Source: Pseudomonadota bacterium (lineage in GTDB: Bacteria > Desulfobacterota > Desulfobacteria > Desulfobacterales > JAHIVH01). From it: DNA of 64,000 bases. The stretch lies in the NCBI GenBank assembly GCA_018816735.1, contig JAHIVH010000061.1, forward strand, positions 124,001-188,000. The letters are read 5' to 3'. Positions 45,218 to 49,397 of this stretch are shown piece by piece. The notes below the pieces were generated by a model that saw only the letters and a program-made list of their open reading frames with translations, was not told the DNA's origin and searched no databases. Numbering within the stretch: the first letter of the stretch is position 1; each line of letters opens with the position of its first letter. The position numbers were made by a program, and so were the translations under genes.

Positions 45218-45862
45218 TTAATCAAAGTTATTGGGTGCTTTATTCCGGGTTGACGGGCTGTTCATGAACAGATCCTCAATCCCCTGCCAGACATTTTCAA
45301 TAATGGCATAAGGGATGATCTCATCGCTGGTGATGCCTGGGTTAAGAGATTCCGCACGTTTTACTGCAGGGATGATATTATCCACAAGGGCTGGAATGTT
45401 TCTTTCAAGTGCATGGCCCGTTCCATGGATCGCATGCGCGACCGCAGTCACCGCACCGCACTGGGTATGCCCCAAAACCACCAGAACCGGTGTATTGACG
45501 TGAGCAAGACCATATTCGATCGATCCGATTTCATCGGTATCGCACACATTACCGGCCACGCGTATCACGAATATATCCATCACGCCGGAATCAAAAATAC
45601 GTTCTACCGGCACTCGTGAATCCGAACAGGTAATCACCGTTGCGATGGCATGATCCCCCTGATTTTCCCTGCCTGCCTGGATCAGTCGTTTGGCATCGGT
45701 ATGCGGATGAATTGATTGGCCATTTACAAATCAAATGTTACCGTCCATCAACAGCTTGATCGCTTCATCAGGCGATGGTTTTGCCCATACAGATGGCAAT
45801 TGAATTCCTATCATACAAATAAGACAAACCACAAATAATGATACACGATAAACGGACCTCAT
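45218..45862 (-). pseudogene. periplasmic beta-carbonic anhydrase gene, broken
   Basis: Starting at the ATG at 45862, the frame encodes a signal peptide (LFVVCLICMIGIQLPSVWA), then the beta-CA opening DEAIKLLMDGNI, an in-frame TGA at 45731-45733, then FVNGQSIHPHTDAKRL and TCSDSRVPVERIFD. Zinc ligands are visible in CSDSR and in GHTQCGAV. The family normally has Arg at the TGA position (GNxRF), so a CGA to TGA change explains it. The 3' end also lacks the conserved final strand after SPSTRNK. Two lesions point to a true pseudogene. Confidence 0.85.
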
Positions 45863-45980: not shown

Positions 45981-47357
45981 TTAATCCAATCCATATTTCT
46001 TCATTTTCTGATAAAGTCCTGTACGATGAATCCCCAGGTATCGGGCGGCTTTTACCCGATTGTTCTGAGATATCTTCAGTGCTTCTGCCAGCGTGTCCCG
46101 TTCGGTGGTTTCCAATACCTGTTTCAGATTGATCGTGCCTTTTGAAAAAAGGTGTTGCCCGTTACCAAAACTTTTCTGCTTGCTGAACTGAAGATCTTCA
46201 AACGCAATACTATCGCCTTTGGCCACAATCATGGCCCGTTCAATCACATTTTTCAGCTCACGAACATTCCCGGGCCAATTGTATTGCATCATGGCAGATA
46301 GGGCTTGATCTGAAATCGTATATGTTTTTCTATCCCGTGTAAGCTCTTTTAAAAAGTGATTGATCAATACAGGAATGTCCTCTTTCACTTCTCGTAAAGG
46401 GGGAAGCTGAATGGTTAAAAGATTGATGCGGTAAAACAGATCCAGACGGAACTTGCCTTTTGAAATCACCGATTCCAGATCCTTGTTGGTCGCGCTGATC
46501 AACCGGAAATTGACTTTTTTGGGTGTCCGGGATCCTACGGGCTCTACTTCTTTTTCCTGCAGTACCCTTAGAAGTTTTGCCTGCATGTTTAAGGGAAGGT
46601 CTCCGATTTCATCCAGAAAAATCGTGCCATTATCCGCCAGTTCAAATTTTCCGGGTTTTCCTTTTGGGTGGGCACCGGTGAACGCCCCTTTTTCATAACC
46701 GAACAGTTCGGATTCAAAAAGTTCATTGGGAATAGCAGCACAGTTGACCCGGATAAATGCATTTTTATGCCTGAGACCTGCCTCATAGATCGCATGTGCG
46801 TATAGTTCCTTGCCTGTACCGGACTCTCCCATAACCATGACCGGAGAATCAGAAGCGGCTGCCTTTATTGCAAGGGCTTTGACGGCTCTGGTCTTGTCAG
46901 ATTGACCGATAATGTTGTCAAAGCTGTATTTGCTGCCGTAAAGCTGGTTGAGTTCATGTCGATAGTAGTCGATATGGTGTTCAAGAACATCAATTCTTTC
47001 AAACAGCTCCTTTAACTTTTCAGGATGAAGAAACATGAGTTTCCCGGCAGCACCAATGATTCTGCCATCCTTTGAAATGGGGAGTCGCGCGACAATCCGT
47101 TTCTTGTCTTTCAAAACCATGCTCTCCCCGATTTCCGCCTTATCCGTTTCAAGAACGAGATGCAGCCGGGTGTCGGGGCTGACTTCTGTAATATGCCGCC
47201 CAATGGCGTCTTTTACCGATACGTTGTAGATGCCCTCATTGGAACTGCTCATGAAACGGATAATACCGTCTTTGTCAATCAGAATCAGGCTTTCATATGG
47301 ATTATCGAGAAGAGCTGAAAGAAGTTCCTCAGGAATATCTGTGATACGATACCGCAT
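45981..47357 (-). CDS. PAS-sigma54 activator (NtrC-type, Fis HTH)
   Basis: 458 residues from this start. An N-terminal PAS domain (LLDNPYESLILIDKDGIIRF...GRHITEV) is followed by a coiled coil. The AAA+ domain has Walker A GESGTGKE, GAFTGA for sigma54 contact and Walker B GTIFLDEIGDL. A C-terminal Fis-type HTH follows (NNRVKAARYLGIHRTGLYQKMKKYG). No receiver domain, so it senses through PAS. The ATG at 47357 follows the hgcB stop by one base; ATGs at 47372, 47393 and 47405 inside hgcB are alternatives. It is likely cotranscribed with hgcAB. Its target promoters are unknown. Confidence 0.88.
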   Translation of the reverse strand: MRYRITDIPEELLSALLDNPYESLILIDKDGIIRFMSSSNEGIYNVSVKDAIGRHITEVSPDTRLHLVLETDKAEIGESMVLKDKKRIVARLPISKDGRIIGAAGKLMFLHPEKLKELFERIDVLEHHIDYYRHELNQLYGSKYSFDNIIGQSDKTRAVKALAIKAAASDSPVMVMGESGTGKELYAHAIYEAGLRHKNAFIRVNCAAIPNELFESELFGYEKGAFTGAHPKGKPGKFELADNGTIFLDEIGDLPLNMQAKLLRVLQEKEVEPVGSRTPKKVNFRLISATNKDLESVISKGKFRLDLFYRINLLTIQLPPLREVKEDIPVLINHFLKELTRDRKTYTISDQALSAMMQYNWPGNVRELKNVIERAMIVAKGDSIAFEDLQFSKQKSFGNGQHLFSKGTINLKQVLETTERDTLAEALKISQNNRVKAARYLGIHRTGLYQKMKKYGLD

Positions 47358-47358
47358 G

Positions 47359-47652
47359 TCAACAGCATCCATTAGGGCCGCCGCAGGAGGCATTCTCCCT
47401 GCCATAAATCCATCCGGAAATGATGTATGCCGCACAACCGACGCCCGGTTCGACGGTAATTGCCAATGTGGGACAATTATTTTGGCACGCACCGCATTCC
47501 ATGCACCCATCCGGATCAGTGATGACAGCTTTTTTGTTTTCTATCTGAAAAACAGCATGGGGACAGACCGTCTCGCAGTTTCCGCACCCCACACAACTGT
47601 CCTGGTCTAGCTTTAATGTCGTGACACCTGTCATGTATCGTAATTTTTTCAT
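47359..47652 (-). CDS. hgcB: HgcB, ferredoxin of mercury methylation
   Basis: 97 residues. Two [4Fe-4S] motifs: C20-x2-C23-x2-C26-x3-C30-P and C50-MEC53-GAC56-x3-C60-P. The second has the HgcB hallmark CMECGAC. Further conserved cysteines are C73 (GVGCAAYII) and a C-terminal pair C96-C97 after C90, a feature of HgcB that ordinary ferredoxins lack. HgcB is thought to reduce the HgcA corrinoid and to hand over Hg(II). It lies 35 bases downstream of hgcA. A longer upstream frame runs into hgcA and is rejected. Confidence 0.95.
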   Translation of the reverse strand: MKKLRYMTGVTTLKLDQDSCVGCGNCETVCPHAVFQIENKKAVITDPDGCMECGACQNNCPTLAITVEPGVGCAAYIISGWIYGRENASCGGPNGCC

Positions 47653-47687
47653 AAAAATATACCTTTTAAATACGTTTGAATCATAAG

Positions 47688-48869
47688 TTAAAATGCCGCA
47701 ATAATCCATAAAATTATGGCGAGTATCACCGCTGAAACCTGCAAAGGGATACCGATTCTCATTTCCTTTTCCACCCCGGATGGAGACGTAAATGGTGTTG
47801 TGCCCGTAAAATTCATGGCCAGATAGGAGCTTATTGATACGGTAATCAGCATAAGGGCAATCATGCCTTGAGCCCCTTCCCGGCTGCCCCAGAATAGCGC
47901 CACGGGTAATCCGGCGGCAAAACCGGTTATCAACCCTTTCATGGCAAATGCATTTCCATAGACAAATGGAAGCAAAACCGGTGTCAAAACAGTGCCGGCA
48001 AAGATTCCCATGAGAACGGCTGCGAATGAAAGCGGCCACCTGTCGATTGCGATCTTGAATGAAAAGATATCCGGGCTGATGCCGGACAGGATAAAAAGAG
48101 CTGCCAGGATATAAAAAGCAGGCTTCAATGCCAGGCTTGCTTCCACAGGAATGACCACAAGCCTGTCGATCAGTCCGAATGTGACCTGGCGCATTTTCTT
48201 ATCTGCGTTCATGTCATTATCGAGGAACAGCCCCAGGTCTTCTGTCCGGACAGGTCCCCAGATCACTTCAAACCCGGTCTGCTTTTTTAGGCTGACCGCC
48301 GAAACGCCGGTTGCGGCGAGCTGGGGTAGAATCAGCTTTCGGTGGCCCACGACTTTCTCTATCCCGGTTAGTCCAATCTGTCTTTTCAGCTCGTTTGTGC
48401 CAAAGGTACCTTTTCCTGCGGCACACCAGACATTTACGCCCAATGTATCCAGGATAAGTATCCAAGCGGTTCTGCCGTAAAGCGCTTTTCTCAGATGATC
48501 AAAAGAAAGCTTATAGTTTGCCGTGACCACTACTGGAGAATCCTTGGAAGGACGCCCCACGGCATAAAGCCCGGATGCAATTTTGTAGTCATCTCTTTTG
48601 ATATTCAGTCGAACGTTGATGTTTGACAGTATATCACCATAGGTGAGTTCCGTTCTAATCATAGGAACGTCACCGGCATCTGTCGGAATAAATTCCTCAA
48701 CAAACGGCATAATCCGGTAACCGGCTTTTTCATGATTCTGCATGGACGAGGCTTTTTCCATCGAAGCCCCACAGCAGGATTCTGATACACATGAGGATGG
48801 CATCGACGGCATTAACGCCACTTGACTGGATTTTGACGTGCATGCGCATGCACTTTCATTTTCTGACAT
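47688..48869 (-). CDS. hgcA: HgcA, corrinoid protein of mercury methylation
   Basis: 393 residues. The cobalamin-binding domain (about 55-225) holds the diagnostic cap-helix motif NVWCAAGKGTFGT, with C149 as the predicted lower axial cobalt ligand. About five membrane helices follow (232-249 or 250-266, 279-300, 311-327, 335-352, 372-392), the known HgcA layout. The related CO-dehydrogenase corrinoid subunit lacks both marks. HgcA transfers a methyl group from methylcobalamin to Hg(II). The start at 48869 follows AAGGAG. An N-terminal extension of about 50 residues carries five Cys (8, 10, 27, 32, 33). Confidence 0.96.
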   Translation of the reverse strand: MSENESACACTSKSSQVALMPSMPSSCVSESCCGASMEKASSMQNHEKAGYRIMPFVEEFIPTDAGDVPMIRTELTYGDILSNINVRLNIKRDDYKIASGLYAVGRPSKDSPVVVTANYKLSFDHLRKALYGRTAWILILDTLGVNVWCAAGKGTFGTNELKRQIGLTGIEKVVGHRKLILPQLAATGVSAVSLKKQTGFEVIWGPVRTEDLGLFLDNDMNADKKMRQVTFGLIDRLVVIPVEASLALKPAFYILAALFILSGISPDIFSFKIAIDRWPLSFAAVLMGIFAGTVLTPVLLPFVYGNAFAMKGLITGFAAGLPVALFWGSREGAQGMIALMLITVSISSYLAMNFTGTTPFTSPSGVEKEMRIGIPLQVSAVILAIILWIIAAF

Positions 48870-48929
48870 GAAAATCTCCTTATAATGAAGTTCATTCATT
48901 TTTGCATGGAAAAATCCGACCCGGATCGA

Positions 48930-49397
48930 TTAGCAGCAGTTACGATCCCTCCTGCAGCAATTTTCAAGAGAATGGATAAACATATTCACAGAGGAGATGA
49001 CGTCTTTTCTATCCGTGTCAGGAATGCTTTGACGGCAATCTTCGATAAACCTTTTCATGCAAGCCCAGACCGCGTTGTGAACTTTTTCCCCTTCTCTTGT
49101 CATTTTCAGTTCAACAGCTCTTGAGTCTTTGGATGACGCCACACGCATCAGCAGATTCTGTTTGATCAATGGGGCGGCAAGCCGCGTTGTCGTGCTTTTT
49201 TCAACACCCAAAAGTGAATGAAGGGAAGACATGCCAAGCTGCCCCTCTGCAGATGAAATATAGTCAAGAATGCAAAATTGAACAAAAGTAATGTTTTCAC
49301 AAAAAACCGATTCGTTTTGAAACAGCCTGAGACTTTTGATAAGGCCTTTGATTAAATCAAATACTGTTCTGTCTTCCTGGTGGTACCCCTCTTCCAT
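48930..49397 (-). CDS. MarR-family regulator with terminal Cys pairs
   Basis: 155 residues, winged helix of the MarR type: FVQFCILDYISSAEGQLGMSSLHSLLGVEKSTTTRLAAPLIKQNLLMRV is the HTH, then DSRAVELKMTREGEKV forms the wing. The C-terminus ends ENCCRRDRNCC. Other Cys are at 33, 42, 113 and 121. The cysteine set suggests sensing of a soft metal, metalloid or thiol stress. AAAGGAGGCAGG directly precedes the ATG. It lies 60 bases upstream of hgcA on the same strand and is the first gene of that operon; its own promoter overlaps a palindrome. Confidence 0.88.
   Translation of the reverse strand: MEEGYHQEDRTVFDLIKGLIKSLRLFQNESVFCENITFVQFCILDYISSAEGQLGMSSLHSLLGVEKSTTTRLAAPLIKQNLLMRVASSKDSRAVELKMTREGEKVHNAVWACMKRFIEDCRQSIPDTDRKDVISSVNMFIHSLENCCRRDRNCC

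Follow-up and report, generated by a model that had tools for sequence, protein, structure and literature searches.

Does the pair of corrinoid-protein and ferredoxin genes at this locus belong to the mercury-methylating HgcAB family, and what else in the genome would bear on the methylmercury it may produce? The window, meaning the whole 64,000-nucleotide stretch of DNA that was analysed, carries an intact HgcA–HgcB pair, for which Hg(II) methylation through methyl transfer from a corrinoid cobalt is predicted from sequence with a probability of roughly 0.9. hgcAB is the accepted marker of the production of methylmercury, a poison, and the locus is a further carrier, from a genus of which the searched set contains just one other genome. 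Taken alone, the new HgcAB is a correct but ordinary member of a known family. Of wider interest are the Cys/Sec tails, the MarR subfamily and, most of all, a MerB-like gene with in-frame UGA codons (UGA-MerB), a gene that raises the question of net methylmercury flux.

Identity of the HgcA–HgcB pair

The relevant features, in window positions, were as follows.
47688..48869, minus strand: hgcA, 393 aa from the ATG at 48869; 414 bits to NF040863 against a cut-off of 275; fold match 9a0b.
48411..48434, minus strand: cap-helix motif NVWCAAGK, HgcA residues 156–163, Cys at 159 of 403 or 149 of 393.
48771..48776, minus strand: codons TGC TGT of the tail Cys-Cys pair, HgcA residues 42–43 of 403, aligned with Cys-UGA in some relatives.
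47359..47652, minus strand: hgcB, 97 aa, with two 4Fe-4S motifs, Cys73 and a terminal Cys pair; NF040864.
48930..49397, minus strand: MarR-family regulator, 155 aa; 31.2 bits to PF01047 against a cut-off of 24.6.
45981..47357, minus strand: sigma-54-dependent activator, its start abutting the hgcB stop; 228 bits to PF00158.

Two candidate ATG starts were found for hgcA, at 48899 (403 aa) and 48869 (393 aa), with a common end at 47688 on the minus strand. The sequence AAGGAG lies just upstream of the ATG at 48869, so the 393-aa start is preferred, and hence the C149 numbering; residue numbers below refer to the 403-aa form unless stated, in which the same residue is C159. The coordinates confirmed the preliminary description of two full-length genes on one strand, 35 bases apart, and both genes were intact. 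The profile search that it had proposed also bore it out, as both NCBIfam cut-offs were exceeded: the match of HgcA to NF040863 began at residue 78 (E = 4.1e-124), and HgcB scored 125.5 bits against the NF040864 cut-off of 99 (E = 5.3e-37).

The cap-helix motif NVWCAAGK with C149, pointed out earlier, was present, and Cys159 was invariant across 49 aligned sequences, which were chosen from the best 120 of 7999 matches and are skewed to close, full-length forms. The AlphaFold2 model of HgcA (mean pLDDT 85) placed the cap helix at residues 157–163 and further helices at 243–272, 281–308, 318–367 and 373–402. We read the modelled C-terminal domain as five predicted membrane spans, provided that the 50-residue helix (318–367) crosses twice; the earlier count of about five helices agrees with this reading. 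A fold search with the model returned the HgcAB model 9a0b as the nearest entry (E = 1.8e-20), followed by CFeSP; its chain shares 47% identity with HgcA, a moderate value that counts against confidence in HgcAB activity. The two [4Fe-4S] motifs and terminal Cys pair described for HgcB were all located, with cluster cysteines at 20/23/26/30 and 50/53/56/60, Cys73 in GVGC and the terminal pair at Cys96-Cys97.

A misreading of a corrinoid iron-sulfur protein (CdhE/AcsC) or of an HgcAB-like fusion as HgcA is hardly credible. Such a misreading would account for the Pfam result, in which only the C-terminal part of the CdhD domain was matched (43.7 bits), and for the nearest solved chains by sequence, which are CFeSP large subunits. 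However, the model for CFeSP gamma CdhE/AcsC (NF003195) gave 72 bits against a cut-off of 306, and that for the HgcAB-like fusion (NF043039) gave 193.6 bits against 285. Moreover, the genome's own CFeSP gamma has SVLTAWAAGK at the cap-helix site, whereas HgcA has NVWCAAGK. HgcA and CFeSP also fell into separate clades of a corrinoid-domain tree of 79 rows, in which every second named locus was skipped: the HgcA of the window and that of the other genome in the genus paired (99/97), and all six CFeSP large-subunit rows fell in a single clade (100/100), with a long-branch warning near the root and a bootstrap that had not settled. The phylogeny suggested in the preliminary description thus placed HgcA outside the CFeSP clade, for the HgcA corrinoid domain rather than for the concatenated pair. 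Its wording of a predicted methylmercury producer was of the right strength, the more so as a MerB-like gene of the same genome could lower net production. HgcA-like proteins of three genomes (L132, L133 and L134 from G090, G066 and G037) scored under the HgcA cut-off, retained NVWC and sat on long tree branches.

The source genome is represented by a single assembly of 6.5 Mb in 135 contigs (94.5% complete, 1.3% contaminated). Genes for dsrA, CODH, CFeSP gamma and CFeSP delta were over cut-off, a context that fits an anaerobe; methyltransferase-like and AcsV-like genes beside CODH were under their NCBIfam cut-offs. The best 80 of 571 confirmed HgcA relatives in named genomes showed 41–54% identity and came, by title, mostly from Desulfobacterales or other deltaproteobacterial lineages, with hgcB adjoining hgcA in 78 of these 80 loci (tblastn). 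HgcA was over cut-off in 36 of 96 relatives and in 112 of the 291 genomes of the order. Two assemblies, G037 (contigs C416 and C444; 9% contaminated) and G250 (C32 and C426; 8% contaminated), had two HgcA matches over cut-off each, possibly through assembly mixing. The pair is split in G088: on contig C797 (loci L103 and L130) hgcA is followed by a sigma-54 activator with hgcB not adjacent, and a different contig (C1166:29500-29775) carries an HgcB over cut-off.

Proposed methylation, thiol tails and regulation

In the proposed mechanism, electrons supplied by HgcB would yield Co(I) on the HgcA corrinoid. This Co(I) would accept a methyl group, from S-adenosylmethionine if the enzyme follows that of Pseudodesulfovibrio mercurii, for which biochemistry from 2024 reports this donor (PMC11588087). 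The cap-helix Cys159 would bind the cobalt and help the methyl group move to thiol-bound Hg(II), and HgcB Cys73 with the terminal Cys pair would deliver mercury and carry methylmercury away. We ourselves suggest that the HgcA tail with its Cys-Cys pair may likewise shuttle both, and the upstream MarR protein would regulate the hgcAB genes upon encountering a thiol-reactive metal or organometal. We infer activity, methyl donor, tail function and regulation for this HgcAB from its sequence.

The residues reported as needed for mercury methylation in strain ND132 are HgcA C93 and HgcB C73, C94 and C95 (PMC11588087), and each has a counterpart in the window proteins. An alternative to be weighed, if an unlikely one, is that the pair is a true HgcAB by descent with its everyday job elsewhere, on another metal or metalloid or in a one-carbon reaction, so that mercury would be a side substrate at best. 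PMC10349881 treats the native function of HgcAB as an open question, hgcAB often lies close to arsenic genes in other genomes according to PMC7438021, and Cys or UGA tails would suit several soft metals. The full match to the residues named for ND132 methylation speaks against such a role and for the predicted mercury methylation.

The HgcA tail is disordered in the model (residues 1–49 mostly at pLDDT below 50) and carries the Cys-Cys pair, in which Cys43 never varied and Cys42 was conserved to at least 90% among the same 49 sequences, skewed as they are to close forms. The last tail motif was Cys-Cys in 60 of 104 distinct HgcA loci, Cys beside UGA in 18 and Cys only in 25, with one tail too short; the 104 remained from 114 loci after L104 and L114, unmatched by the motif pattern, and repeats were removed, and the Cys-only class includes three loci (L087, L089 and L095) whose UGA is close to the Cys without adjoining it. 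The tails of L104 and L114 have Cys-Arg-Gly in place of Cys-Cys-Gly or Cys-UGA-Gly, and the cap motif of L104 is NVWCAASK. A UGA stood at the HgcB Cys73 (GVGC) position in 26 of the 101 loci in which an HgcB core was recognised, out of 114 with repeats kept. The window genes hold no UGA at these places, the tail being encoded by TGC TGT and HgcB having GVGC. Selenoprotein forms of HgcA ('CU') and HgcB ('GVGU') are already listed in PMC13188914, citing Haft and Gwadz 2023, so the HgcA tail is a known selenium site. What is new here is that many members of this group, the window protein among them, have the Cys form of the tail. Its role in mercury handling is putative.

The MarR gene ends 30 bases before the ATG at 48899 and is likely co-transcribed with hgcAB. 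Its product has Cys33, Cys113 and a Cys-rich C-terminal tail. A protein collection search returned a small set of 23 proteins over threshold, including itself; with the addition of L086, Cys113 was found in 24/24, Cys33 in 21/24 and Cys-Cys within the last 30 residues in 19/24. These cysteines suggest a sensor that would detect a metal or organometal through its thiols. Relatives of this MarR protein stand beside hgcA at L086 (E = 7.9e-30) and, more weakly, at L067 (1.3e-9); a third, weak match, at L088, is downstream of hgcA on the other strand. In addition, the MarR protein P0127 and the HgcA protein P0007 each list one 4090-base contig of a common source, a hint of a further MarR–hgcA pair. 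MarR genes upstream of hgcA have been reported in Dethiobacter alkaliphilus and Geobacter daltonii (PMC10349881), and ArsR-like regulators upstream of hgcAB have also been described (PMC7438021, PMC10349881). Among ORFs upstream of hgcA in relatives, ArsR-type families were the commonest (HTH_20, 30; HTH_5, 29), followed by MarR_2 (11) and MarR (6); the scan covered 73 of 102 ORFs, 29 being left out by hand, and one ORF may match several families. In the only same-genus genome, hgcAB has fmdB, thiF-like and tatD-like genes as neighbours, as it does here, and the MarR gene is missing.

A conserved operon with the sigma-54 activator was rejected, as none of the 80 best named loci had this gene next to hgcA (tblastn; five distant matches). 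Sigma-54 activators occur in other loci, and only L103 in G088 has one adjoining hgcA, there without an adjacent hgcB. In the same-genus genome the contig breaks off 278 bases past hgcB, too soon to bear on sigma-54 linkage. Within the window, no RNA families or tRNAs were found, and promoter-like sites numbered 9 against 9.3 expected. A gene for a beta-carbonic anhydrase, its start resembling a signal peptide, lies at 45218–45862 on the minus strand; its open frame contains one in-frame UGA near residue 44, which may be a genuine stop, may encode selenocysteine or may stem from an assembly error.

A MerB-like gene with two in-frame UGA codons

A search of the source genome for MerB, an enzyme of mercury detoxification, gave one match, outside the window.
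Contig C20, about 174957–175709 (L139:1285–2037): MerB-family gene with two in-frame UGA codons.

The gene lies on a contig other than that of hgcAB, between unrelated genes. It scored 62.5 bits to PF03243 in the genome scan and 78.9 bits with UGA read through (cut-off 27), and stayed under the cut-offs of the MerB models NF009710 (43.8 against 193) and NF033555 (37.9 against 200) and of SaoL NF040728 (47.8 against 140). Alignment to the solved MerB 3f2g placed the first UGA at Cys96, Glu95 at Asp99 and the second UGA at Cys159; these three residues are the catalytic ones of MerB. For each of selB and tRNA-Sec, the genome gave two matches over cut-off.

Both UGA codons are likely read as selenocysteine. 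It is improbable that they are true stops in a fragment or pseudogene, since UGA was kept at both columns in 19/19 close relatives. The coding test used these 19 of the 30 fetched loci, all of the close type, and the alignment used 23 of the 30. Third codon positions varied most (0.579, 0.575 and 0.570 before, between and after the UGAs), with first/second positions at 0.26/0.176, 0.301/0.172 and 0.389/0.312; the frame is therefore constrained beyond both UGAs, more weakly in the last segment. Furthermore, some relatives have Cys at both sites, and selB and tRNA-Sec are at hand in the genome. TAA or TAG was found in none of 52 matches in 44 of the order's 291 genomes (two UGAs in 42, one in 3, none in 7) and, as a single TAA, in one of 60 matches in 50 of 395 genomes of a phylum sample (two UGAs in 36, one in 7, none in 16); the source genome (G000) and G104 count in both lists, and the figures give the number of UGAs, whose positions were inspected in the fetched matches. 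SECIS-like RNA folds downstream support the reading of the second UGA (mean z -1.73, negative in 19/19). The point in favour of true stops is that no SECIS-like fold was seen after the first UGA in the 19 loci (mean z +0.42, single folds no better than shuffles). With selenocysteine at both sites, the protein would be able to split organic mercury. A MerB-like selenoprotein is listed in PMC13188914 (as SaoL, motif CU) and in PMC9312934. In the literature searched, where subscription papers are thinly covered, no MerB was seen described as having Sec at its two catalytic sites, and searches of PMC5029168 and PMC12013277 by term gave no matches. For MerA, the best match in the source genome was under the cut-off (404 against 454.45 bits).

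HgcA was over cut-off in 24 of the 38 genomes of the order with UGA-MerB and in 88 of the 253 others (one-sided Fisher p = 0.0009, kinship ignored), compared with 1/6 genomes with Cys-only MerB. In a 96-genome subset, hgcA was found in 9/10 UGA-MerB genomes and 27/86 others (p = 0.0005; size-stratified p = 0.0033); in G075, the remaining one of the ten, hgcA is split into two pieces. As the subset lies within the 291-genome set, the two tests are not independent, and as phylogeny and selenium use were uncontrolled, the link of UGA-MerB to HgcAB is suggestive only.

We tentatively propose, at somewhat less than even odds, that methylators of this order often carry a double-Sec MerB-like lyase, hidden from gene callers, that may split the methylmercury made by HgcAB or a related organometal, the metal being relayed between paired thiols and selenols of HgcA, HgcB and this lyase. 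Evenly balanced between true and false, to our judgement, is the explanation that the gene encodes a selenoprotein for another organometal or another job, and that its co-occurrence with hgcA comes from ancestry, genome size or selenium use. The scores under the SaoL and both MerB cut-offs, the 14/38 UGA-MerB genomes without an over-cut-off hgcA and the separate contig with unrelated neighbours all point that way. The filling of the MerB catalytic positions by UGA, Glu and UGA argues against it, as does the 9/10 co-occurrence that held on size stratification, phylogeny and selenium use being uncontrolled.

If the proposed double-Sec lyase acts in this way, one cell would both make and break organomercury, and the MerB-like gene could lower the net methylmercury output of this genome. 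Gene callers stop at UGA, so that HgcA and HgcB are cut in many relatives and the MerB-like gene would be missed; surveys asking whether methylators also demethylate may thus overlook UGA-containing MerB. PMC8261052 reports that, in its set, no genome encoding only MerB codes for HgcAB. With UGA read through, 24 genomes of one order carry a MerB-family gene together with hgcA, MerA having been checked in the source genome only. Any action of UGA-MerB proteins on methylmercury would bear on net methylmercury output.

Comparison with known systems

The window pair shares with HgcA–HgcB of P. mercurii ND132 the corrinoid domain with its cap-helix Cys and the membrane helices (PMC7305189, PMC11588087, PDB 9a0b), as well as the dicluster ferredoxin with Cys73 and a terminal Cys pair. 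It differs in that the cap-helix Cys is at 149 or 159 here and at 93 in ND132, an offset that indicates an N-terminal extension of about 55–65 residues bearing the Cys-Cys pair. Upstream of hgcA lies a MarR gene, whereas an ArsR-like gene is reported in Desulfovibrio strains; in D. alkaliphilus and G. daltonii the regulator is of the same family in the same upstream place, a likeness by description rather than by sequence (PMC10349881). The selenoprotein HgcA and HgcB of PMC13188914 use the same tail and Cys73 sites, with Cys in the window genes where relatives have UGA. The MerB-like protein differs from MerB and SaoL in its UGA at both catalytic sites and in its scores under their cut-offs; it aligns with MerB across the catalytic core, the Cys, acid and Cys positions being filled as UGA, Glu and UGA.
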